Source: Candidatus Cloacimonadota bacterium
GTDB taxonomy: Bacteria > Cloacimonadota > Cloacimonadia > Cloacimonadales > TCS61
Direction of reading: 5' to 3'
Assembly (NCBI GenBank): GCA_030600585.1
Contig: JAUVLU010000023.1
Span: 1 to 40,618 of the forward strand
Length of the DNA: 40,618 bases
Positions within the stretch are counted from its first letter, which is position 1. Each line of letters starts with the position of its first letter. A model generated the notes under the pieces. That model did no database searches, was not told the DNA's origin, and worked only from the letters and a program-made list of their open reading frames with translations. Shown here piece after piece: positions 1-27,710 of the stretch. Made by a program: the position numbers and the translations under genes.

Positions 1-3000
1 TTGAGTTCACAGAGAAAAGCTCACAAAATGATACATTTACACAATTGCATATTAAAGACTGTTCTTCATCCGGAAAGGCTGGAGAACCGCAATTACCGGT
101 ATATACTAAGTTCATTATTCTCCCTGATCATGGAAATTATGTTTTAGAAAATATTTCATACGATGAAAAGATCATCGAACTGGATAAGGCGGTTTTACCT
201 ACCGGTTTTTTTGATGACTGCGAAGTAAATACTGCTGAATATAATAAAGATGAATGGCTCCCTTCGGAGATCGTTACAATAAGTGATCCAAACATCATGG
301 GTGCGTACCGGTTCTCACAGATTGCTGTATCACCTACACAATATAACCCAATCCAAAACAAAATTAGAATTTTAGAAAACATTGAAATCAATATAATGCT
401 GGATGAAGCTGATACAAAAAATCCGAAACTAAAACAAAACAAGATCAATTCATTTTCCGATATAGCCAAATCATTAATTCAAGGAAATGTAATTAATCAA
501 ACCATGCAGAATGGACAATATCTCTTTATTATTCAAGATGATATAGCCTCTCTTTTAGATCCGCTATTACGTTGGAAAGAAAAACTGGGTTACAAAACCA
601 GAGTTGCAACTTTATCCGAAACCGGTTATACTGCGGATTCTATTAAAAACTATATCCAAAATGCTTATGATAATTGGGAAATTCCTCCTGAATTTGTTAT
701 TCTAATTGGTGATGTTTCAGGTGCTATTCAGTGTCCCGCTTTTTTTGTAGAAGGCTATTGGGAACCATATGCTGTAAGTGATCACAATTATACTCTTCTC
801 GATGGAGATGATTATTTCCCTGATGTTTTTATCGGCAGACTTTCAGTCCAAAGTCAGATGGAATTAATGACTATTATATCTAAAATTATTAATTATGAGC
901 GAAATCCTTTTATGGATATCCCATGGCAGAAACGTGCTTTAATGGTTGGACATATTGAAGAATGGAATGGTTACTCTCAGCGTGAAATTTTGATGGGAAT
1001 CCGAAACAAACTACTTGATTTTGAATATACCACTGTCGATACATTTATAAGTCCCTGGCAGCAGGGAAATATCCAGCTTGCAAACAAAATAAGTGAAGGG
1101 GAATCATTTATATGTTTTCGCGGGGCTGGATCTCCTTCCTATTGGAGTGGTGGTTATGCAGGTCCCATGTTTACGATTGATGATATTAGTACTTTGAATA
1201 ATGGTTTTATGCTGCCGATGGTTACAAGTATGACTTGCGCCGGTGGTGATTTTGCGTCCGAACAATATACAACATGTTTCGGTGAAAAATGGTTAGCAGC
1301 AGGAAGCCCTTCGGTTCCACAGGGAGCAATTGGATTCATCGGTCCAAGCGAACATGATACAAAAGCCTGGTTCAATAATGCAAATGCGATGGGAATTTAT
1401 CAGGGTGTTACTCAGGAAGGATTATTTCGCTGTGGAGAAATGCTGCTTCGCGGAAAGATGGAATTGTACAACAACTACCCGCATAATCATGCTTGGGGAA
1501 GCGCATTAGACTCAGATCAATTCTACTTTTATGTTTATAATCTTCTTGGAGATCCCGGATTGCAAATATTAACTGATATTCCGCAAGAGATCGAACTCAT
1601 CTTTGATCCGGTTATTCAATCTTCAGTCAATTTTATTGAAGTGCACATCGATATTTTAGGGGATGATCTTTCCGGATTTACGATTGCTATCACATCTGAA
1701 GACAGCCTTATAACAACCGGAACTACAGATGCCGGCGGAACTGCAATTATTCCCATTGATCTACCTACCGGCAGCTATGAAGTTACTGCTTCCAAATACT
1801 GTTATATTCCAATTACGCATGATCTTGTTGTGGAAGCTGACGCATCTCTTGTATTAGAAAATTTTTCTTTTTCAGATCAACTTGTTTCAGGTTATAATTC
1901 TAATTTGGAATTCACTATTGCCAATGCCGGAATTACCGATATTGAAAATATAACAATAATTCCACTGTGTGATAATGATCACATCACTTTCCCGAATAAT
2001 TCGCTTGATTTGGATATTCTGGAAGCTGGACAGAATTATTCGGGTGAATTTGAAATACAAGTTTCCCAAAGTTGGGTAGATGGAGAGGAGGCACTAATAT
2101 TTCTGGAAATAACTTCTGACGGCGGAGATTTTATTTTCTTAACTCCGTCGGTAATTGTTTCACCTGAACTTATGGTTTCTGAATTTATAGTGCAGAATTC
2201 AACCCAATGCCTTATCCAAAATCAAACGACAAATATTTTAATCGAGCTGCAAAATTGCGGCAATTTTGGTACCGGTAATTTCCAAGCTGAACTGATCTGT
2301 ACGAATGAGAATGCCATAATCGAGGATGCCTTCAGCAGCTTTGTTAATATTCCCCAAAATGGAACAGGAACCGGTATTTTCTTTGTTACACCAGAAAATG
2401 TGAACTCAGGTGAAATTGCTCAATTTGAATTAATTATCACAAACGATTATTCTATTCTACAAAATATCAGCTTCAACTTTCCTATCGGTATTATTGATTC
2501 AACCAGTATTACCTTCTCAGAAAACGGTTATTATGCAATTGAATCAGGAGATATTGGAAATTTCAGTGCTCCACAGTATAACTGGATCGAGATAGATCCT
2601 GCTTATGGAGGTGACGGATCACTTCTCGATTCCGATCATACAACTATCGATGGATTTACAAAAGTTATTCCCCTTCCATTCCAATTTAATTATTATGGTA
2701 ATTTCTATGATAATATCTCTATTTGCTCCGAAGGCTACATCTCTATGGAAACAATGCCGCTTGTATTTCATAGAAATCGTAATATCCCATCGGGAGTTGG
2801 TCCAGCAGGAATGATAGCACCCTTCTGGGATGATCTTATCGATGGCAGAATATATGTTAAATACGATGTAGAAAACCATTATTTTATTATTGAATGGTCG
2901 GATTTTAAAAATGAATTTGATGGAACCAGCGAGATATTCCAGGTTATACTCTACGATCCCGAATTTTATTTCTCAACCAACGAAAATAAATTGATAAAAT

Positions 3001-4787
3001 TCCAATATAAAGAAATAAGTAATACAGACCATGATGAGAATTATGCAACTGTTGGATTAGAAAATTATCAGCAGGATAGTGGTTTATTATTAACTTTCTC
3101 CAATATTTATCCAAACACCGTACATGAATTGCAAAATGAGACCGCAATACTTTTTTGCCATAATATTGAGATCGGCATCCCGTTCATAAGTGCTGAACCC
3201 GAGAGCTTCTTTTTTTCAGTTACTGCCGATTCCATCTTCACGGTTGATTTTACATTATTAAATGTTTTGGGTTCTTCCGATATTTCATATAATGTTTCAT
3301 TAGCACACTTTGCAAAAATACCTGATGGGTATCCAACTAATTTCAATGAAGATTTCTCCAGAAATATCGAAAGTAGTCTAATTTTTAATATGACGAATAC
3401 ATACATACCAATAATTCCGATGAACTTCCTTTTTTATTTGATCCATAATGACATCGATGGTGAAGGTGTTTATGGCATTACAATTGACTTCCCACCCGGA
3501 TTTTATGTGAATAGCGCTACGAATATTGATGAACTGGAATATAATAATGAAACTGGTGACGGAGCAGAAATAAGCTGGGGTTTTGTACCGGGAAATAGCA
3601 TTATTCCTCCTCCTTCTTCTTCAATCCCGATAAATGTAAATGTGACAATCGATGAAAACCAAACATCTCCGGTTGAGATTGGCTGGTATATCGAAGGAGA
3701 CGGAACGGGAAGTGCGCCGCATCAGGTAAGCGGTACATTCACGGTTAATCCGACCGGTGACAATTATCTCTGGATAACTTACCCAAACGGCGGAGAAACA
3801 ATTGTTCCCTCGATACAAGATACACTTTTGTGGGATAAATACGGTGATGCGGAATATGTGCAGATAGAACTAAGCAAAGATAATATGGCAAGCTGGCAGA
3901 TAATTGATGATCAGGCAGAAAATTCAGGGTTGTATCCATATATATTTGATGGTCCGCTCGCCGATGAGTGCAGGATCAAAATATCAACCCTTGATGGAGA
4001 GAGCTATGATTATTCCGATGAATCTTTTAGCATTTCAGCCTTTAATATCATCTACCCGGAAGAGGGTTCAATACTCTCTTATGGAACAATTGATACATTA
4101 ATATGGCAATATACCGGAAATTACGATAATGTGCAGATCGAGATTTCTGTGAATAACGGATATTCATGGGAATCAATAAGTGAAATTGCTGAAAATACCG
4201 GTTCATTTGTTTATTCGGTTCAAGGACCTCCTTCCGAATTCTGTTTATTCCGAATTAGTAATACAGCCGGCACAGTACAAAATACATCAGGAACTTTCAC
4301 GATAGTAGATTCACCAGTTGATTGGCTGGAAATAGAAAATACGTCAGGGAATATTCCGGCAGGTGGGAACGATATTAATTCCTTTACAATCTCCTCCGAT
4401 GGATTGATTCTTGCAACTTACGTTGCAGTTATTAAGGTTATTACAAATATTGGACAAATTTTAAATATTCCAATCACGCTGGAAGTATATTCAACAACAC
4501 CTCCAATAGAGCATTATAAACTCAGTCAGAATTATCCAAATCCATTTAATCCGTTCACAAAGATCGACTATGAAATTCCTATAGCCGGTAAGATCACAAT
4601 AAAAGTGTATAATATCAGGGGACAATATGTTAAAATGCTTATTAATGAGCAAAAGGAACCGGGAAGTTATTATACCTATTGGGATGGAACCGATGACAAA
4701 AACCGCAAAGTAAGCTCAGGAGTTTATTTCTATCAACTCGAATCAAGCAAATCTACAAAAACAATGAAGATGATTCTTATCAAATAG
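1..4787 (+). CDS. Secreted gingipain-like (peptidase C25 family) protein with T9SS-type C-terminal sorting domain, 5' end outside window
   Basis: The reading frame is open to the first base, so the N-terminus (signal peptide) lies outside the window; a TTG at 45 is only an internal codon. Numbering below counts from that TTG. The first ~40 residues resemble a C25 propeptide (GEPQLPVYTKFIILP). Residues ~155-510 look like a C25 caspase-fold domain, with DGDDYFPDVFIGRLS and the Cys-containing stretch SMTCAGGDFAS (Cys398). Where many C25 enzymes have GHGS, this one has RGAGS (Ala361), so activity is uncertain. Ig-like and nidogen-like beta domains follow (~520-1030), then two Ig-like repeats (~1255-1440, YPNGGE and YPEEGS starts). 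The last ~90 residues are a FlgD-like/T9SS sorting domain (NYPNPFNPFTKIDYEIP). The family is exported across both membranes and anchored or released. No partner gene is visible. Confidence 0.85.
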   Translation, partial: EFTEKSSQNDTFTQLHIKDCSSSGKAGEPQLPVYTKFIILPDHGNYVLENISYDEKIIELDKAVLPTGFFDDCEVNTAEYNKDEWLPSEIVTISDPNIMGAYRFSQIAVSPTQYNPIQNKIRILENIEINIMLDEADTKNPKLKQNKINSFSDIAKSLIQGNVINQTMQNGQYLFIIQDDIASLLDPLLRWKEKLGYKTRVATLSETGYTADSIKNYIQNAYDNWEIPPEFVILIGDVSGAIQCPAFFVEGYWEPYAVSDHNYTLLDGDDYFPDVFIGRLSVQSQMELMTIISKIINYERNPFMDIPWQKRALMVGHIEEWNGYSQREILMGIRNKLLDFEYTTVDTFISPWQQGNIQLANKISEGESFICFRGAGSPSYWSGGYAGPMFTIDDISTLNNGFMLPMVTSMTCAGGDFASEQYTTCFGEKWLAAGSPSVPQGAIGFIGPSEHDTKAWFNNANAMGIYQGVTQEGLFRCGEMLLRGKMELYNNYPHNHAWGSALDSDQFYFYVYNLLGDPGLQILTDIPQEIELIFDPVIQSSVNFIEVHIDILGDDLSGFTIAITSEDSLITTGTTDAGGTAIIPIDLPTGSYEVTASKYCYIPITHDLVVEADASLVLENFSFSDQLVSGYNSNLEFTIANAGITDIENITIIPLCDNDHITFPNNSLDLDILEAGQNYSGEFEIQVSQSWVDGEEALIFLEITSDGGDFIFLTPSVIVSPELMVSEFIVQNSTQCLIQNQTTNILIELQNCGNFGTGNFQAELICTNENAIIEDAFSSFVNIPQNGTGTGIFFVTPENVNSGEIAQFELIITNDYSILQNISFNFPIGIIDSTSITFSENGYYAIESGDIGNFSAPQYNWIEIDPAYGGDGSLLDSDHTTIDGFTKVIPLPFQFNYYGNFYDNISICSEGYISMETMPLVFHRNRNIPSGVGPAGMIAPFWDDLIDGRIYVKYDVENHYFIIEWSDFKNEFDGTSEIFQVILYDPEFYFSTNENKLIKFQYKEISNTDHDENYATVGLENYQQDSGLLLTFSNIYPNTVHELQNETAILFCHNIEIGIPFISAEPESFFFSVTADSIFTVDFTLLNVLGSSDISYNVSLAHFAKIPDGYPTNFNEDFSRNIESSLIFNMTNTYIPIIPMNFLFYLIHNDIDGEGVYGITIDFPPGFYVNSATNIDELEYNNETGDGAEISWGFVPGNSIIPPPSSSIPINVNVTIDENQTSPVEIGWYIEGDGTGSAPHQVSGTFTVNPTGDNYLWITYPNGGETIVPSIQDTLLWDKYGDAEYVQIELSKDNMASWQIIDDQAENSGLYPYIFDGPLADECRIKISTLDGESYDYSDESFSISAFNIIYPEEGSILSYGTIDTLIWQYTGNYDNVQIEISVNNGYSWESISEIAENTGSFVYSVQGPPSEFCLFRISNTAGTVQNTSGTFTIVDSPVDWLEIENTSGNIPAGGNDINSFTISSDGLILATYVAVIKVITNIGQILNIPITLEVYSTTPPIEHYKLSQNYPNPFNPFTKIDYEIPIAGKITIKVYNIRGQYVKMLINEQKEPGSYYTYWDGTDDKNRKVSSGVYFYQLESSKSTKTMKMILIK

Positions 4788-19662: not shown

Positions 19663-20568
19663 TTATTCTTCTTTGTTTTTATAAAATCTTGTGGTTGGAT
19701 ATGCCAGCTCAATATTCTTATTCTTGGCAAATTCCGATAAGATATCTTCCCAGATAGCTTCGGTGTAACCCCGTCGGTTTCTGGTTTCGCATAAATGGCG
19801 AATTGTAAGTTTTACTCCATGATCAACAACGCTCGTATAAACTATCGGTGTTAATTCCTTATAATATATCATATATTTTTTTGCAGCTCTCTTAATCTGA
19901 TTCTCCATTCTTTTAGAGATATTCTCACCTTTATTGTTGGCAATTTCCAGCAGGATCTTTTTAGCTTTTTGCCAATCACTTTCAAAGGTAACAACAACTT
20001 CTATTTCATTCCAGAGATATTTGAAACCTTTATCATAATTTGCCAGATCTTGTGTAAATATTTTACCATTCGGAATATGAACTATTCTGCCTGTACTCTG
20101 ATCTGCATGAACCCAGTTCCCGATCTCCAGAAGTGTGAATTCAAAGAAGCTTTGATCTATAACATCACCGGCAAATTCACCGATCTGAACCCTGTCACCC
20201 ACATTAAAAGGACGCCTCGAAATAATATAAAACCAACCGGCAAAATTCGCCAAAACATCTTTTAGAGCAATAGCAACACCGGCAGAAAGCAATCCTAAAT
20301 AAGTAATCAGAGATTGTGCACCTCTAAACCATATCCGACCCACAAGAATAATAACAATGAAAAAAGTAACGGAATTTATCAATTTACGCCAATGATATTG
20401 GGTTTTAACATCGGAAATATTCTTATTGATAAGTTTAACTATCAATATCTTGATCAACCAGATAATAATGATCAATGCGATCGATTCAATGAATTTAATC
20501 ATAAATGGTGAATTGATGTAGGGAATGCTTTGAAAAATGCTTTTTATATATTCCAGTAATTCTGTCAT
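19663..20568 (-). CDS. MscS-family mechanosensitive channel
   Basis: This 301-residue membrane protein forms a tension-gated pore. Two N-terminal hydrophobic segments (~22-50 and ~65-85) precede the MscS pore helix and beta domain (YLGLLSAGVAIALKDVLANFAGWFYIISRRPFNVGDRVQIG, positions ~90-130). It is the last gene of the motor operon; its ATG shares a base with the MotB-like stop codon (TAATG), with AGGAG upstream, so translation is probably coupled. Whether it works with the motor or is only a passenger is not known. Confidence 0.93.
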   Translation of the reverse strand: MTELLEYIKSIFQSIPYINSPFMIKFIESIALIIIIWLIKILIVKLINKNISDVKTQYHWRKLINSVTFFIVIILVGRIWFRGAQSLITYLGLLSAGVAIALKDVLANFAGWFYIISRRPFNVGDRVQIGEFAGDVIDQSFFEFTLLEIGNWVHADQSTGRIVHIPNGKIFTQDLANYDKGFKYLWNEIEVVVTFESDWQKAKKILLEIANNKGENISKRMENQIKRAAKKYMIYYKELTPIVYTSVVDHGVKLTIRHLCETRNRRGYTEAIWEDILSEFAKNKNIELAYPTTRFYKNKEE

Positions 20569-21227
20569 TAATCACTCCTGAAATTCTTGATCAATCGGAT
20601 TTCTACTCTCCTGTTCTTCTTTCTGTTAATAGTAGAATCGTTAGGAACAAGTGGTTTAAATTCGCCATATCCCATTGCCTGCATCTGCTCCGGCGGGAAA
20701 AAGTTATTATCCATAAAGAATTTCACTACATTCAAAGCTCTTGCTGATGAAAGTTCCCAATTGGAAACGAAACTACCACTGAATATGGGAACATTATCGG
20801 TGTGGCCTTCTACCCGAACCTGCCATCCTGGCTCACCCTTTATCCTATTCTGAATATTTCTGGCAACTTGAGCAAGTGTACGCAAAGATTCCCATTTCAA
20901 AAGAGCTTCTCCCGTATTAAATAATACTTCTCCCGGAATTGTAATAACTTGTTCATTTACATCTAAAAGAGAATCTAATTTAGCGAGTTCCATCAAACGT
21001 TCATTTTGCTCTACTATCTGTTTATTCTGTTCAACAATTTTTCTATTTTTTTTATAGTCCATTGTTACATAAAAGAATACAAAAAAGACCAGAAGCAGTG
21101 CCATCAGATCTGCAAACGGGACCATCACATCCAACAAGTTCTGATTCTCACTTAACTCGTCGCTTATATCCTGAAACGTACTTTGCATTGAATATTTTTT
21201 ATCAATAAGTATATCTTCTGTCATCAA
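20568..21227 (-). CDS. MotB-like stator subunit with OmpA peptidoglycan-binding domain
   Basis: This 219-residue protein has one N-terminal membrane helix with PFADLMALLLVFFVFFY; Asp40 sits where MotB has its ion-binding aspartate (YADFMT-type motif). A short coiled region with a repeated KIVEQN unit follows, then an OmpA-like domain (VEGHTDNVPI, SSARALNVVKFFM, NRRVEIRL) that binds the cell wall. It overlaps the MotA-like gene by four bases (ATGA). Compared with ExbD/TolR, the OmpA domain and F-A-D motif favour MotB. Confidence 0.92.
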   Translation of the reverse strand: MMTEDILIDKKYSMQSTFQDISDELSENQNLLDVMVPFADLMALLLVFFVFFYVTMDYKKNRKIVEQNKQIVEQNERLMELAKLDSLLDVNEQVITIPGEVLFNTGEALLKWESLRTLAQVARNIQNRIKGEPGWQVRVEGHTDNVPIFSGSFVSNWELSSARALNVVKFFMDNNFFPPEQMQAMGYGEFKPLVPNDSTINRKKNRRVEIRLIKNFRSD

Positions 21228-21961
21228 TGTAAATATCCTAATAATTTTTCTTTGATCTTATGAGAGTTTTCTTCTTTCTTAATTGAAATTATCCCTGCGA
21301 TGATTATATCTCTTATTCTTGTGTCAGTATTATTTTTGTCTCTTATTTTCCCGGATAAAGGTTTGAAAACCAAGGCTGCAAGAATAAGCCCGTAAAGTGT
21401 AGTAACGAGAGCCAATCCCATTGCAGCAGGAATGGCAGCAGGATCTTTCACACGGTGCAGCATGGCAATTAATCCAATCACTGTTCCCATCATACCGAAC
21501 ATTGGAGCAAAGCTGCCAGCTATTCTAAAAACTCTCTCTGCTACAATATTTTTTTCTGTCATGGATCTGCTGTCACGAGACAAGACTTCATCAATATGTG
21601 TAATATCCTCTCCATCCGCTACAAGATTCAAACCTTTAGCTAAAAATGGGATTTCTTTTATGGATTCATTTTCGATCAGGTTTTTAAAACTTGTTTTTCG
21701 AGATTGCTTACTGATATCTAATATAGTATCAACAAGTTTAATTTCCGAATATTGCTTATCTTTGAATATCGCAATAATAGATTTCCCGGCATTCATTAAT
21801 GCTTGCGGAGAAAAATAAATTACAACAGCTGATAATGTACCTCCGAATGTAATTGCCAATGCCGGCCAATTGAGATACAATGATGGATCTTGCTTAAAAA
21901 ATATCACAGATAAAATTATACCAAATCCAAATATAAATCCAATTATTACTGATAGTCTCAT
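21224..21961 (-). CDS. MotA-like stator subunit (MotA/TolQ/ExbB family)
   Basis: This 245-residue protein has four membrane helices (~4-22, 31-50, 147-168, 178-202) in the MotA arrangement, with a large cytoplasmic loop between helices 2 and 3. Conserved MotA signatures are FAPMFGMMGTVIGL (Pro153, equivalent to E. coli Pro173) and MGLALVTTLYGLILAALVFKPL (Pro201, equivalent to Pro222). The loop carries FLAKGLNLVADGEDI, as in MotA proteins. AAGGA within the preceding gene's last codons serves as ribosome site. It should form the ion-driven stator with the MotB-like partner. Confidence 0.92.
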   Translation of the reverse strand: MRLSVIIGFIFGFGIILSVIFFKQDPSLYLNWPALAITFGGTLSAVVIYFSPQALMNAGKSIIAIFKDKQYSEIKLVDTILDISKQSRKTSFKNLIENESIKEIPFLAKGLNLVADGEDITHIDEVLSRDSRSMTEKNIVAERVFRIAGSFAPMFGMMGTVIGLIAMLHRVKDPAAIPAAMGLALVTTLYGLILAALVFKPLSGKIRDKNNTDTRIRDIIIAGIISIKKEENSHKIKEKLLGYLH

Positions 21962-21963
21962 AA

Positions 21964-23370
21964 TTAATCCTTTATAAATTGCAGAATATTTCTAATATTA
22001 AGAAGCATTTGATGCTGGATCATTTCCTGCTCTTTTTGTTCGATCTGTTCCATGTAATCCATATCTTCGCGTATAATGGAAGCTGCTCTCGGAGTTAAGT
22101 TTGCAATAAATTTATTTTGCATATTTCTATCAATACTCTTAAGGAACTTCACCATCAAATCATGATCAGTAGAGAGAACGATCTGCTCGATCTCATGCTC
22201 GTTTAATTTTGTTATATCAGAAAAAAGGAATACTTTCTGTCTCATTTCTTTCCCTGTCTCCGCATCTATTTGATTTATTTGATCCAGGTATTTCTTGGTT
22301 TTATCCAGATCAAGTTGATTTAATACTTTAATAAGTACTTCCCTGCTGTTAATATTTAATTTCTCATCTTCTATCATTTTATTGAATTTTGTTTGTAAAT
22401 TATTTCTTAGTACGATAATTTCTTTCTTCGATTTACCATTATCTGTTAACATCGTTTTCATTATCTCATCTGTTTCTCCTATATAACAATTCAAGAATTC
22501 ACTTACAAACTTTGAATTAAGATTAGTTAATATAAAAGCAATATCACCGACTTTTTCGTTTTCAACAAGTTTGATAAAACTTTGTATCGAGAGCTCTTCT
22601 AAAAAACTGAAATCAAATGGGTCGATTTCTTTTTTATTATCGATAAGTTGAATAACTAAAGGTTTTTTCTTTGTGGAAACAATGCCGGCTGTTGTACTTG
22701 TTCCTCCAATTCCCTGAGCTGACATATTCCCTTTTATCTGTAATGCTTTCTCAAATCCGGTTACATTTATACTTTGCATAGAAGTTGTTAATTTTGTAAA
22801 TCCTGATCTTAAGATGAAAACAGAAACAAGAATTATTATAAGTAAAGCTATTCCCAAGTAGAGAAATAAAAAATTATTCACCTCTTTTTCTTCTACTTCC
22901 TTAACTATATTATTTGTGAAATCCATAATATTTCTTATCTGTAGCACATCACCTTTTTCAGGATTAATATTCATCCAAAGAGCAACATTCTGCTTAATGA
23001 ATAGCAGGATTTCATCTGTTACATCTTTTTGCAAATAGATCGTAATCTCTTTTTTGGCAACAATTGTTGGATATGTTTCCTGATCATCGATCATAGTAGG
23101 CATAACAGATCTTGATTTTGCAATTGGAAGTCCGGGTAAACTCTTTTCTTTATCAAGCATTGACCCATAAACCTGCAGTCTGCTGGCAGGATAATCCAGA
23201 GTAAGATTAGCAATAACTATGGTTTCTCCTACAATTGGGAAAAGCATTGCTTCTATCCATTCGGCTAGTTCACGCTCTGCCTGAATTTCTTTTACTGTTT
23301 CAATATCAAAGTCTTGTGAAAAGAGCTGTAAAGTGAGAAACAAAATTAAAATTATCAACAGTTTCTTCAT
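21964..23370 (-). CDS. FliF-FliG fusion: membrane-ring/rotor protein
   Basis: This 468-residue protein joins two flagellar motor parts. Residues 1-19 are a signal peptide or first membrane anchor. Residues ~32-155 match the periplasmic C-terminal domain of FliF (WIEAMLFPIVGETIVIANLTLDY; IKQNVALWMNINPEKGDVLQI, like FliF's A-x-G-x-x-x-x-RGD region). A membrane helix spans ~166-188. Residues ~258-345 resemble the FliG middle domain (VLIKVLNQLDLDKTKKYL; the EHPQ motif is not kept). Residues ~375-465 are the FliG C-terminal domain (KVFLFSDITKL, NKFIANLTPRAASIIREDM). Lys411, Arg428, Glu435 and Asp436 fall at the exact spacing of E. coli FliG Lys264, Arg281, Asp288 and Asp289; Arg297 is replaced by Glu444. 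FliF RBM1-2 and the FliG N-domain are absent. Confidence 0.88.
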   Translation of the reverse strand: MKKLLIILILFLTLQLFSQDFDIETVKEIQAERELAEWIEAMLFPIVGETIVIANLTLDYPASRLQVYGSMLDKEKSLPGLPIAKSRSVMPTMIDDQETYPTIVAKKEITIYLQKDVTDEILLFIKQNVALWMNINPEKGDVLQIRNIMDFTNNIVKEVEEKEVNNFLFLYLGIALLIIILVSVFILRSGFTKLTTSMQSINVTGFEKALQIKGNMSAQGIGGTSTTAGIVSTKKKPLVIQLIDNKKEIDPFDFSFLEELSIQSFIKLVENEKVGDIAFILTNLNSKFVSEFLNCYIGETDEIMKTMLTDNGKSKKEIIVLRNNLQTKFNKMIEDEKLNINSREVLIKVLNQLDLDKTKKYLDQINQIDAETGKEMRQKVFLFSDITKLNEHEIEQIVLSTDHDLMVKFLKSIDRNMQNKFIANLTPRAASIIREDMDYMEQIEQKEQEMIQHQMLLNIRNILQFIKD

Positions 23371-23383
23371 AAAATATCCTTAT

Positions 23384-24832
23384 TTATTCATTTAATAGTA
23401 ATTGCATCATTTTCTTTATTTCAACATTATCAGGATCCCTTCTCTCGGCATGTTTTAATTGATACATCGCTTCTTCAATATCTCCCAATCGATAATATAT
23501 CGATGCTAACCTTATATATGATAGCGAGAGATCGGGAGCAAGGGAAATAGCTCTGTTACATTCGTCTATTGCTTTGTAATAATCTTCCGAATAATAGAAT
23601 TCCAGTGCAGAGTTCAAATGTACGGTAGCCTGATTGATCTTTTGAATATCAGATTTTCTTATCTTGGAAGCTTCTTCCTGTACTTTTTGCTCAACTTCTC
23701 TTTCATCCATCACACGTTCGATTATCCTTATAGTATCATGAATTGTTCTGGTTTGAACTATAGTATCAATTATTACTTTTTCTATATAGACGGTATCAAC
23801 TCTCACATCAAGATCCAAACCGAATTGAGATGGAAATAATGACGCCAGGTTTTCTTCTGTATCACGGGTTTTGCCAAAATCTATTTTTATACCGAAGAAA
23901 TGTTCACCATAATCAGATTCCAAGCCATTTCCGGTAGGAATAGTTCCACTTTCGTTCGCCCCAGCCAATGGATATTGGAAAGCATAATCCATACTTATCT
24001 GAATAAAGCTGAAATCCAGTTCCTCATTCTTTTTCCCGCTGGTCGGTTCAATCCATTTTTTGGAATAGAAATTCACACCAAAACCGCCGGTAAGATCATG
24101 GTTATTTACTCCCAATCTAATCTGAAGATTTTTTGCCAATAAATATTCCGCACCAAGACCAAAACCCAGTTCGTTATCATTCTGATATTTTCTGTACAAA
24201 ATATCTCCTGAAAAATTGAACCTTTTCCAGGTTACTTTAGAACCAAAACCCAATCGCATTGGAAGTTTATCTTTATTGTTACTATCTATTGCCATATTTG
24301 TTTGCAAGATGTTCCCAGCCAAAAGCCCAAAATTAGCATATTTATTTAATCTGTAAGAAAATCCCAGATCCAGATCAAAGGCATTTTTACTCTCATTGAT
24401 TTCCGAGAAACTTGTGTAATGATCAAATAAACTCAATCCTGCAGAAAATTTACCAAGTAATTTTTCAGGAAAGATACATGCGCCATAATGCAAACCAAAT
24501 CTGCCCTCTGTATAAGCATTGGAATTGAATGAACCACCGGTTAAAGCAAATGCTCCCGGAACTTGTGATATTGGGAATGACAAATAGACAAAGTTTTGTG
24601 CTATCTCATCATTATCCATTTGTATCATGTAGGGACGTGAATCTGTGATAAGCTGAAAATATCTGAAGCCAGCTAAACCGGATGGATTCCATACTGCTGT
24701 AGAAATATCTCCGGAAGATGCAATACCTGTTTCTCCCAAAGCTGCATTTCGTACTCCACCATTTTCAAAATCATATCCAAAACAAAAAATTGGGAATATT
24801 ATTAGACTAATTATAATATATTTAATTTTCAT
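23384..24832 (-). CDS. PorV/UPF0164-like outer-membrane barrel with periplasmic TPR tail
   Basis: I start at the ATG at 24832 (signal peptide MKIKYIIISLIIFPIFCFG, AAGGT upstream) rather than the TTG at 24847. The ~300-residue N-terminal part opens with RNAALGETGIASSGDISTAV-WNPSGLAG, the PorV/OmpP1-like signature (NP-x-GL), and shows alternating beta strands of an outer-membrane barrel. A linker (VDTVYIEKVIIDTIVQTRTI) and a charged helix lead to about 2.5 TPR repeats in the last ~90 residues. The TPR part should hang in the periplasm. The gene begins 4 bases after the adhesin stop and ends 13 before the FliF-FliG fusion. Confidence 0.8.
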   Translation of the reverse strand: MKIKYIIISLIIFPIFCFGYDFENGGVRNAALGETGIASSGDISTAVWNPSGLAGFRYFQLITDSRPYMIQMDNDEIAQNFVYLSFPISQVPGAFALTGGSFNSNAYTEGRFGLHYGACIFPEKLLGKFSAGLSLFDHYTSFSEINESKNAFDLDLGFSYRLNKYANFGLLAGNILQTNMAIDSNNKDKLPMRLGFGSKVTWKRFNFSGDILYRKYQNDNELGFGLGAEYLLAKNLQIRLGVNNHDLTGGFGVNFYSKKWIEPTSGKKNEELDFSFIQISMDYAFQYPLAGANESGTIPTGNGLESDYGEHFFGIKIDFGKTRDTEENLASLFPSQFGLDLDVRVDTVYIEKVIIDTIVQTRTIHDTIRIIERVMDEREVEQKVQEEASKIRKSDIQKINQATVHLNSALEFYYSEDYYKAIDECNRAISLAPDLSLSYIRLASIYYRLGDIEEAMYQLKHAERRDPDNVEIKKMMQLLLNE

Positions 24833-24836
24833 TACA

Positions 24837-27710
24837 TTACCTTGCAATTATTATGCTTCCTTGAAAAATTCTATTATTTATATTTATCCGGTAGATATAA
24901 AATCCACCACTTACTAAATTTTGTTCAGTATCTTTTTTATACCATCTGGCTTGTTTGTTATCTCCATATCCACTTATAATTAATTTTTTAATTAATTTCC
25001 CGCTTCTGTTGAATATATTACCTGATATCTTTTCCAGATCAACCTGGCTGTAGATAGTAATGTTACAATATTCATCATCCCACGTAACTGTGTGTGGTTC
25101 AATAAGAACCTTTTCATCCGGAATTTCAGGAGTAACAGTAACAACAAGTTCAGTTGAACTCGATGAACGTAATACATTGTCTTCCAAAATAACTGTTAAT
25201 ACTTCTGATCCGGTCCAATTTTCTAATGCTGAGAAGGTTACAACAAGATCTGAAATGCTTACAAAAATATCATCATTATTAATAATAGTCAGGGTTAATT
25301 CTTCCGGCAATTGTTCAGGATCAATAATCATTGGTCCAAAATCGATAACTTCCTCAGTATTCTCGGTAAATGTAATATTTTCTGGGAACAGGTCAGGATC
25401 AAAAGAAGGTGCATCATTCACACTGGTTACAATAATATTTGTGTTGTCGCTTGCCAAAGGTTCACCTTCTTCATCACGAATAATAAAACTCACATTTTCG
25501 ATTCCGAACCAATTTGGATCAGGTTCTATTGTTACCATATAACCATTTATAGTTATTGTTAAATTATTGCTGACTGTAGCTTCCAGAATCGGAACATCAT
25601 TCTCAGGATCATAAATATATAAGCTGAAATTTTCAATGATCATGCCATCTTCCATACATGTCATGCTATCCGGCAGAGTTATTGACGGTGGTTGATTATC
25701 TTCACAAACAAAAGAAAAAGATGCGTCTATAAGTACATTTGGAATAATTGCCAGGTCAGCTGCCGAGATATTAACAGTGATAATTTCACTATAATTAAAC
25801 GGTAGTGGAGGTTGGTATGAAATAATATAACCCGAACTTCCCATCATTGAAATTGCTTCAAGTTCAAAATCCTCTATTGTAATATCATTGATATTTACCT
25901 CTATCGAAGTGGAATCAACATCACTCCCACTATCAAGTATATAACAGCTTATCGAAGTGAACACAGAGACATTTACTGCACCGTTAGCCGGATATGGCTG
26001 CCAGATAAAAGGCGGATAGATATCCTCAATAATACATTCAAATGAATAGTTGTAAGTTCCCATTTGATTTGCTGGTAAAGCCAGATCAGATGCATCAATA
26101 GAGACATAAACAGTATCACCGGAATTGAAATTCTCTACAGGATCAATAATTATCAAATAATCATTATTACCACCGCTGTAGAATAGATTTCCATTCCCAA
26201 TTGAATAAATAATATCCTGCACATCCACAACAACACTATTGATATCTACACCAAAACCATCATCATTAATATGAAATGAGATATTTGTGTTTAAGGCATT
26301 ATCCACAGATAAAGGCTGAGGGTCGAGATTTGTGACATAAGGTGTCTCCTCATCACTGACACATTGAAATGAATAGGAAAAACCGGAAAGTTGATTTGCA
26401 GGAGTTGAAAGATCATCTACGTCAATCTCTACTGTAACTATCTGAGAAAATTCAAAGTTCTCGGATGGATTAATATTGATTGAATAGTCAGATACATTTC
26501 CGCTAAAGGATAAATTCCCGTTTGCAACTGAATACTGCACTGCATCTATTTCAACAAGCAGAGTATTAATATCTACTCCCATATCATCATCATATACATG
26601 AAAACTGATATTAGTATCTATTGGAACATTCTGCTGTCCGGGGACAGGATCGTAATTTCCTATGTATGGAGGAGCAATATCGTATTCGCATTGGAAACTA
26701 TATATATATGTTACCATAACGTTAGCAGGTTGGGAAAGATCGGAAGCATCTATCTGAACGGTAATAACCTCTCCATAATCAAAATTACCGGGTAGATCTA
26801 TTGTAACTGAATACCCATACGGAATTACCTGATACGAGAATGATGTATTAAGATAAGTAAATTGAACTCCCTGAATATCCACAACAACAGAGTTAACATC
26901 GACACCCTCAATATTATCGTATATATTAAAACTTACGTTTGTGTCGATCTGTATTCCATTCGCACCAGGTTCGGGATTCCATTCACCGGTAAATGGAGGT
27001 TGGATATCATCTATTATCTCGAATGAATATTCAAAGGTAGCCATTACTATCCCATTCAAGTCGGAAGCATTAATTGCAATTGAGACAATCTCGGCAAGTG
27101 CAAAATTAACAGGAACATCAATAATAATATGATAAGCATTTGCATTTCCTGAGTATGAAAAACACCCATTATTGTGAGTATAGGTAACACCTTCAATTTC
27201 AACTACTACTGATGTTAAATTCACGCCGATCCCGCTATCGTAAATAATAAATTCAATATCAGTATCCTGAGGAACATTAACCGCACCTGCATCAGGATCT
27301 AAACTGCCGATATAAGGAGGCTGCATATCTTCAATAGTCTGAAACGAATATGAATATGTTGACATTACGTTGGCAGGATTTTCAAGATCAGCTGCATCTA
27401 CCTGAATATTTATAAGATCATCAAACGAGAAGTCCATAGGTGGATTAATTGTAATAATATAATCAAAAGGTGTCCCGCTATAAAAGAAGGAACTGCTGTC
27501 ATTATTATAGATTATTCCATTGATATTAACCTCTACAGTGTTTATATCTACACCATCAACATCATCATAGATATGAAAAGTCACATCAGTATCTACTGGA
27601 ATCCCCGTTGCTCCTGCCGTTGGATATAAAGGTGAACAGTAGGGAGGAACTGAATCTGCAAAAATAAAACAACTGAATATTAAAATGAAAATAACAAAGA
27701 TATATTTCAT
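24837..27710 (-). CDS. Large surface protein: six Ig-like repeats, cadherin-like domains, T9SS-type C-terminus
   Basis: This 957-residue protein has a signal peptide (MKYIFVIFILIFSCFIFAD). Six repeats of ~109 residues follow (~22-670), each starting PPY/PPF...DP.PG.. and containing DxxxGVDxNxxxVxI and Y-SFQC-like ends. Two cadherin-like domains come next (~675-870; TVSNNLTITINGYMVTIEP, SVNDAPSFDPDLFPENITFTEN). The C-terminal ~75 residues (ISGNIFNRSGKLIKKL..SGGFYIYRI..IFQGSIIIAR) form a FlgD-like/T9SS sorting domain. It heads the motor operon; GGAG precedes the ATG. It should be exported to the cell surface and is a natural candidate for the adhesin moved by, or anchoring, the motor; that link is inference from gene order. 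Confidence 0.85.
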   Translation of the reverse strand: MKYIFVIFILIFSCFIFADSVPPYCSPLYPTAGATGIPVDTDVTFHIYDDVDGVDINTVEVNINGIIYNNDSSSFFYSGTPFDYIITINPPMDFSFDDLINIQVDAADLENPANVMSTYSYSFQTIEDMQPPYIGSLDPDAGAVNVPQDTDIEFIIYDSGIGVNLTSVVVEIEGVTYTHNNGCFSYSGNANAYHIIIDVPVNFALAEIVSIAINASDLNGIVMATFEYSFEIIDDIQPPFTGEWNPEPGANGIQIDTNVSFNIYDNIEGVDVNSVVVDIQGVQFTYLNTSFSYQVIPYGYSVTIDLPGNFDYGEVITVQIDASDLSQPANVMVTYIYSFQCEYDIAPPYIGNYDPVPGQQNVPIDTNISFHVYDDDMGVDINTLLVEIDAVQYSVANGNLSFSGNVSDYSININPSENFEFSQIVTVEIDVDDLSTPANQLSGFSYSFQCVSDEETPYVTNLDPQPLSVDNALNTNISFHINDDGFGVDINSVVVDVQDIIYSIGNGNLFYSGGNNDYLIIIDPVENFNSGDTVYVSIDASDLALPANQMGTYNYSFECIIEDIYPPFIWQPYPANGAVNVSVFTSISCYILDSGSDVDSTSIEVNINDITIEDFELEAISMMGSSGYIISYQPPLPFNYSEIITVNISAADLAIIPNVLIDASFSFVCEDNQPPSITLPDSMTCMEDGMIIENFSLYIYDPENDVPILEATVSNNLTITINGYMVTIEPDPNWFGIENVSFIIRDEEGEPLASDNTNIIVTSVNDAPSFDPDLFPENITFTENTEEVIDFGPMIIDPEQLPEELTLTIINNDDIFVSISDLVVTFSALENWTGSEVLTVILEDNVLRSSSSTELVVTVTPEIPDEKVLIEPHTVTWDDEYCNITIYSQVDLEKISGNIFNRSGKLIKKLIISGYGDNKQARWYKKDTEQNLVSGGFYIYRININNRIFQGSIIIAR
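25700..27647 (-). repeat. Coding region for six ~109-residue Ig-like repeats
   Basis: The repeat starts read PPYCSPLYP, PPYIGSLDP, PPFTGEWNP, PPYIGNYDP, TPYVTNLDP and PPFIWQPYP. The copies have clearly diverged at protein level, so this is an old expansion, not a recent tandem duplication. Confidence 0.8.

Follow-up and report, generated by a model that had tools for sequence, protein, structure and literature searches.

What does a flagellar-type motor do in a bacterium that lacks key flagellar genes and encodes the motor next to a surface adhesin? The question is raised by a stretch of 40,618 nucleotides (here called the window; contig JAUVLU010000023.1 of assembly GCA_030600585.1) from the 2.58-Mb, 97% complete genome of an uncultured member of Cloacimonadota, labelled G000; in sequence comparisons, the closest named records to the window were those of Candidatus Tenebribacter. 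Its minus strand carries, from position 27710 to 19663, six open reading frames (ORFs) encoding an adhesin, an outer membrane barrel with tetratricopeptide repeats (TPRs), a FliF/FliG-like protein, MotA, MotB, and an MscS channel (Table 1). With the barrel gene beginning at the ATG at 24832 (a TTG at 24847 is a possible alternative), the genes are separated by gaps of 4, 13, and 2 bases down the operon, followed by overlaps of 4 bases (MotA/MotB) and 1 base (MotB/MscS). The location of the ORFs and their Pfam families bore out the gene content, order, and spacing given by the original prediction, which had been made from the sequence alone. The core of the operon consists of five genes: those for the adhesin, barrel, rotor, MotA, and MotB. 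As developed below, the operon may encode a unidirectional, ion-driven motor that moves a barrel-carried adhesin, a reading to which we give a probability of roughly 0.55.

A one-piece rotor and a flagellar-type stator

The third ORF matched the FliG_C family of Pfam (55 bits; cutoff, 23.3), and a profile search of the PDB identified its residues 253 to 462 as the middle and C-terminal domains of FliG (E = 3e-36). The same part aligned with the FliG proteins of flagellated Cloacimonadota (hhalign, 99.5%). In an AlphaFold2 (AF2) model, the N-terminal part comprises a signal peptide, a domain of alpha-beta-beta-alpha-beta topology (residues 26 to 147), and a single transmembrane (TM) helix. The modeled domain resembled RBM3/collar structures of FliF (Foldseek probability, 1.00; E about 2e-3), and a cross-phylum profile of the rotor matched the stretch of FliF from RBM3 to TM2 with 96% probability (hhalign; E = 5e-9). 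A homologue at locus L103 exceeded the cutoff for YscJ_FliF_C (PF08345; 29.7 against 23.8) and those for FliG_M and FliG_C within one protein. The profile matches of the window protein to FliF in the PDB were weak (E = 0.0017 and 0.011), as were those of a profile built from Cloacimonadota fusions only (45 to 51%), the relationship becoming clear only with the cross-phylum profile; phmmer with the N-terminal domain alone found no match in the PDB.

By these profile and model comparisons, the rotor is a one-piece RBM3-TM-FliG protein with the FliG middle and C-terminal domains. The fusion of FliF to FliG that had been predicted therefore stands, but its FliF part is not a full one. Where FliF has RBM1 to RBM3 and two TM helices, the rotor has a signal peptide, RBM3, and a single TM helix; it lacks RBM1, RBM2, TM1, and the long collar of FliF as well as the N-terminal domain of FliG, which the fusion itself would make unnecessary. 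In non-motile hosts, FliF-FliG fusions of Salmonella assemble into rings (PMC6079021). The loop at the position of the collar carries an LPGxP motif that is invariant in a nine-sequence cross-phylum alignment. An initial reading of LPG[LV]P as the collar motif of FliF (GGVPGALSN in Escherichia coli) was dropped because the FliF proteins of Cloacimonadota carry no such motif, and it was not used as proof of kinship with FliF.

The stator genes are of the flagellar class. The MotA ORF matched the Pfam family MotA_ExbB at 78 bits (cutoff, 22.9), matched only MotA and PomA among solved structures, over its full length (E = 5e-33), and scored 159 bits with the MotP model of NCBIfam versus 21 bits with TolQ and 18.5 bits with ExbB2. 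MotB contains an OmpA domain (57 bits; cutoff, 27.2), and its MotB_plug match of 22 bits lies slightly below the cutoff of 24; alignment shows that the TM aspartate is retained together with the OmpA domain. That the operon encodes a rotor and stator of the flagellar type is close to certain.

Residues at the rotor-stator interface point the same way. The torque contacts in E. coli cited in PMC12505986 pair MotA R90 with FliG D288/D289 and MotA E98 with FliG R281. All of the Cloacimonadota fusions have acidic residues at both D288/D289 positions and an invariant R281, and the position of R90 is occupied by R, K, or H in the operon MotAs. The FliM-binding motif EHPQR has been lost from every Cloacimonadota fusion.

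Missing flagellar genes and conservation of the operon

Models for FlhA, FliM/FliN, and the C-terminal domain of classical FliF were searched across whole genomes. FlhA (PF00771) is absent from G000 and present in 12 of 125 Cloacimonadota genomes; FliM/FliN (PF01052) is likewise absent from G000 and confined to the same 12; the classical FliF domain is not found in G000 and occurs in 10 of the 125. The normal flagellar regulon that the original prediction had named as the finding that would count against it is thus not represented in G000 by any of these markers. No rod, hook, or filament genes lie within the window, and these were not searched for separately across the genome. The fusion occurs in 24 of the 125 genomes (counted as full length or as a clear N-terminal or joint fragment), and it coexists with FlhA in a single genome, G056. 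Because FliM and FliN are absent and their EHPQR docking site has been lost, the motor is probably nonswitching and would turn in one direction.

Different genera and families of Cloacimonadota keep the core gene order, which is also seen in other phyla; the original prediction had named a lack of such conservation in relatives as a second finding that would count against it. Adhesin and barrel genes adjoin the motor genes in 17 of the 20 Cloacimonadota loci that were fetched; in 15 of the 17 the order is adhesin-barrel-rotor-MotA-MotB (some being cut by contig ends), whereas the pair is divergently oriented in L052 and lies downstream in L053. In distant genera, the block stays and the flanking genes differ. 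MscS is confined to the genus of the window and one other, the two closest, and is absent from more distant operons, so that of the six genes originally grouped as one system, five form the core and MscS is a lineage-specific addition. Among congeners, dN in the operon is 0.09 to 0.18 versus a dS of 1.2 to 2.7 (dN/dS about 0.04 to 0.14), and the operon is under strong purifying selection. The low dN relative to dS, with an order that is kept despite changing flanks, argues that the operon is not a chance arrangement. Promoter-like sites around it are about as common as in shuffled sequence, and its terminator-like sites fall within genes.

When 387 genomes were searched, fusions turned up outside Cloacimonadota as well. 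L102 and L103 have the same gene order, as does L105 over a shorter stretch, and FlhA is absent from four of the five genomes of other phyla with these fusions. The fusion was matched in 6 of 6 genomes of one small phylum and in 13 of 16 of another, some with two or three paralogues. Twenty further loci mostly have the order surface protein-barrel-rotor-MotA-MotB, some with an additional protein of 1,100 to 1,300 amino acids between rotor and MotA or with a second MotB. A tree built on the FliG part groups all Cloacimonadota fusions in a single clade (support, 100/99) apart from the flagellar FliGs of the phylum (95/87). The unconstrained tree splits the fusions of all phyla, and a single clade of all of them was not rejected (p-AU, 0.22; branches are long). 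The fusion at L101 (8507 to 10024; G242, a genome of another phylum in which FlhA is present) is sister to those of Cloacimonadota (99/87, with long branches).

Several variants were observed. Loci L138, L139, L143 to L146, and L150 encode a rotor with C-terminal TPRs and, between rotor and MotA, a proline-rich/helical protein of 1,100 to 1,300 amino acids. Two MotB genes are found in L135, L137, L140, L147, L148, L151, L152, and L153, all from other phyla; one of each pair keeps the TM aspartate, which is replaced by N, T, or S in its partner (PYGNLMT and similar; residues read by eye). This pattern suggests a heterodimeric stator with a single ion site. In L049 (G056), asparagine occupies the ion-binding site (FANLM) of the only visible operon MotB (216 to 797); as the contig stops directly beyond this gene, a second MotB gene may have been cut off, and G056 also has flagellar genes. 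MotB-like ORFs with MotB_plug only and no OmpA domain occur at L042 (1338 to 1877) and L043 (9579 to 10001). G000 itself has a second, diverged motor operon (contig C74; L004, 6502 to 10633) whose fusion shares about 31 to 33% identity with that of the window and is accompanied by MotA, MotB, and a periplasmic TPR protein, with no barrel or adhesin; L051 is its orthologue.

A putative outer membrane carrier and what the motor may move

The barrel ORF matched PorP_SprF in Pfam (23.4 bits; cutoff, 22.3), followed by TPRs, and PorV_fam in NCBIfam (39 bits, under its cutoff). The best fold match of its AF2 model in the PDB was 8gl6 chain F, from a substrate complex of the type IX secretion system (T9SS) with the C-terminal domain (CTD) of RemA (E = 1.3e-10), followed by FadL. 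In Bacteroidota, SprF is attached to its track through cysteines in the C-terminal tail. The TPR tail of the barrel is kept in all aligned orthologues and contains a cysteine (residue 430; window 23558 to 23560) that is invariant in 17 of 17 barrels; the periplasmic part of the window rotor contains no cysteine. PorV and PorP-like proteins belong to the FadL family of barrels and serve as binding partners of CTD cargo; the adhesin SprB is anchored by SprF (PMC9143113), an outer membrane carrier that ties it to a moving track (PMC12635249).

The adhesin matched Big_5 (71 bits; cutoff, 23.6). Among operon adhesins, the repeats differ (Big, Big_9, PKD, cadherin-like, fn3, and FG-GAP) and the C-terminal approximately 85 amino acids are conserved in common. 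The T9SS-type C terminus that had been assigned to the window adhesin was matched by no model; the assignment holds by alignment with orthologues, of which that in L052 exceeds the CHU_C cutoff (27.4 against 27) and that in L043 does not (24.6).

A working model can be proposed in which MotA and MotB, held to peptidoglycan through the OmpA domain of MotB, would use the ion gradient to push the FliG torque helix of a ring made of the single rotor protein. RBM3 would form the periplasmic ring, one helix would pass through the membrane, and the FliG domains would provide the cytoplasmic track, giving a rotary motor of flagellar descent that works without a flagellum. The periplasmic face of the ring, with its LPG[LV]P loop, may engage the TPR tail of the barrel, directly or through a further partner. 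The barrel would carry the adhesin of the adjoining gene, whose probable route of export is the T9SS translocon SprA. The predicted output toward the outer membrane and adhesin has strong arguments in the gene order and in the resemblance of the barrel to homologous adhesin carriers, and a coupling of the motor to the carrier barrel is likely. Movement of the adhesin as the end result, in the form of gliding-like motility, adhesin sweeping, or surface retention, is an even call.

Several observations weigh against this model. MotA E98, the partner of R281, is lost in the operon MotAs and kept by the flagellar MotAs of the phylum. Two other phyla have almost always G or A where R281 would stand, and their acidic pair is mostly kept, with QE or EH in some. 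By alignment, then, the R90-acidic pair is the part of the torque interface that is kept family-wide, and the E98-R281 pair has decayed. The overall pTM of the AF2 rotor model is low (0.32), and the PorV or SprF label of the barrel lies near or below the cutoffs. L050 and L051 have the motor without an adjoining adhesin and barrel, and the G000 paralogue has a TPR protein in their place.

The motor could instead power the secretion or presentation of the neighboring adhesin by the T9SS, replacing GldLM, rather than its later movement. SprA/Sov (PF14349) is present in G000 (C19, a frame of 2,020 amino acids) and in all other Cloacimonadota tested, GldM/PorM (PF12081) was above cutoff in none of 125 genomes, cargo and carrier share an operon with the motor, and Bacteroidota use one motor for both secretion and gliding (PMC12635249). 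However, SprA also occurs in Cloacimonadota with flagella and no fusion (G059 and G055), and the motor is hence not the engine of the T9SS in general; the fusion-bearing genomes G196, G337, and G167 gave no SprA match, and a diverged GldM homologue could be hidden, as no positive control matched that model. We consider this explanation unlikely. Elsewhere, the window encodes a large secreted protease of C25/PorU-like type (45 to 4787) that bears a T9SS type A sorting domain and is consistent with a working T9SS.

It is rather improbable that the operon encodes an energizer or sensor of the envelope like ExbBD-TonB or Tol-Pal, in which conformational cycles driven by the stator would pull on the TPR tail to open or remodel the barrel, with neither continuous rotation nor transport of the adhesin. 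FadL-type barrels do include transporters, and a TPR tail with peptidoglycan-anchored MotB would span the envelope. The reading was rejected because MotA belongs to the flagellar class and has the torque interface region in full (TolQ/ExbB matches reach just 18 to 21 bits), because the rotor conserves a dedicated FliG torque helix of which ExbBD and TolQR have no equivalent, and because the usual partner is an adhesin. Somewhat less credible again is that adhesin and barrel are an independent T9SS cargo-carrier pair that is merely coexpressed with a motor acting on another target. The two loci without the pair and the G000 paralogue fit such an arrangement; the adjacency in 17 of 20 loci amid changing flanks and in three arrangements does not, nor does the same order regained or kept in other phyla despite differing adhesin repeats (Big, fn3, PKD, and FG-GAP). 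A decaying, functionless relic of a lost flagellum, suggested by parts of clear flagellar origin with most of the flagellum missing, is very improbable and was rejected given the dN/dS values, full-length ORFs in many genera, a Cloacimonadota clade apart from flagellar FliG, and paralogues and elaborated subtypes in other phyla.

Table 1. Features of the motor operon, with positions in the window
Feature	Position	Strand	Description and evidence
Secreted repeat adhesin, 957 amino acids	24837..27710	-	Signal peptide, Big_5 Ig-like repeats, Big_9, C-terminal sorting-like domain ending IYRININNRIFQGSIIIAR; Pfam Big_5
FadL/PorV/SprF-type outer membrane beta-barrel (putative adhesin carrier)	23384..24832	-	DT(V)-rich linker and TPR tail; PorP_SprF, NCBIfam PorV_fam, AF2/fold match
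Predicted periplasmic TPR tail of barrel	23396..23704	-	Pfam TPR; AF2 helices 382-484; alignment of orthologues; Cys count
One-piece rotor protein, 468 amino acids	21964..23370	-	Signal peptide, FliF RBM3, TM, linker, FliG middle and C-terminal domains; Pfam, profile, AF2
FliF RBM3-like domain, predicted to build ring	22930..23295	-	Alpha-beta-beta-alpha-beta, without long beta-collar; AF2, Foldseek, cross-phylum profile, Pfam match of homologue L103
SLPGLP motif in collar-position loop	23125..23142	-	Family hallmark; cross-phylum alignment
TM helix matching FliF TM2	22801..22875	-	AF2 helix 166-200, hydrophobic stretch, alignment to FliF TM2
FliG middle and C-terminal (torque) domains	21985..22614	-	PDB profile search; residue table: acidic residues retained at D288/D289 positions, R428 at that of R281, no EHPQR
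MotA, flagellar-type stator A subunit	21224..21961	-	Full length; PDB matches; NCBIfam MotP/PomA/MotA; basic residue at R90 position, E98 lost
MotB, stator B subunit	20568..21227	-	Plug/TM with ion-binding Asp (FADLM), OmpA peptidoglycan-binding domain; Pfam, alignment
MscS-type channel, accessory	19663..20568	-	Pfam MS_channel_2nd (51 bits; cutoff, 20.2); only in two closest genera

Comparison with known systems

No description of this system was found in the searchable literature, whose coverage leaves out preprints and most subscription journals; a 2026 review of gliding does not mention FliF or FliG, and a 2025 survey of MotAB does not mention Cloacimonadota. The relatives of the gene set in other phyla hint at a rotary machine of the cell surface that had not been described before. 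Rotor proteins (FliG/M/N) without a filament were reported in 2025 from 11% of non-motile species, the question whether they have another function being left open (PMC12199754), and the operon offers a concrete, widespread, and testable answer. It would separate the flagellar torque engine from its usual export machine, provide a minimal engine for structural work, and, if the reading is true, add a surface movement system for lineages without flagella. The broader view, to which we give even odds, is of a multiphylum rotary machine of the envelope, a torque engine without export apparatus, rod, hook, or filament, whose one-protein ring would drive outer membrane adhesin carriers in a gliding system derived from, or co-ancestral with, the flagellar motor.

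With the bacterial flagellar motor, the system shares RBM3, the torque-bearing middle and C-terminal domains of FliG, a flagellar-class MotA, and a MotB with aspartate and peptidoglycan-binding domain. It differs in that FliF is cut to RBM3 and one TM helix and is fused to FliG without its N-terminal domain, in a genome without FliM/FliN, FlhA, or classical FliF, and in an operon that includes an adhesin and an outer membrane barrel. The gliding and T9SS machinery of Bacteroidota (GldLM, SprF, SprB, and SprA) likewise has SprA and an ion-driven inner membrane motor, and the adhesin with a sorting-like C terminus beside a putative PorV/SprF-family barrel resembles its cargo and carrier; here, MotAB and FliF/FliG stand in place of GldLM (GldM was not found), and the barrel has its own TPR tail. 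To our knowledge, the Agl motor of Myxococcus (AglRQS of Agl-Glt) has no FliG/FliF rotor, and the operon MotA matches the flagellar class, whereas a stator-type motor for surface movement and TPR proteins are common to both; the Agl motor has been described as stator-like (PMC13104615). With the Zorya phage defense system (ZorAB), finally, the likeness is confined to MotB, which resembles ZorB models (84 bits), whereas MotA has no match to ZorA and the operon contains no ZorC or ZorD.

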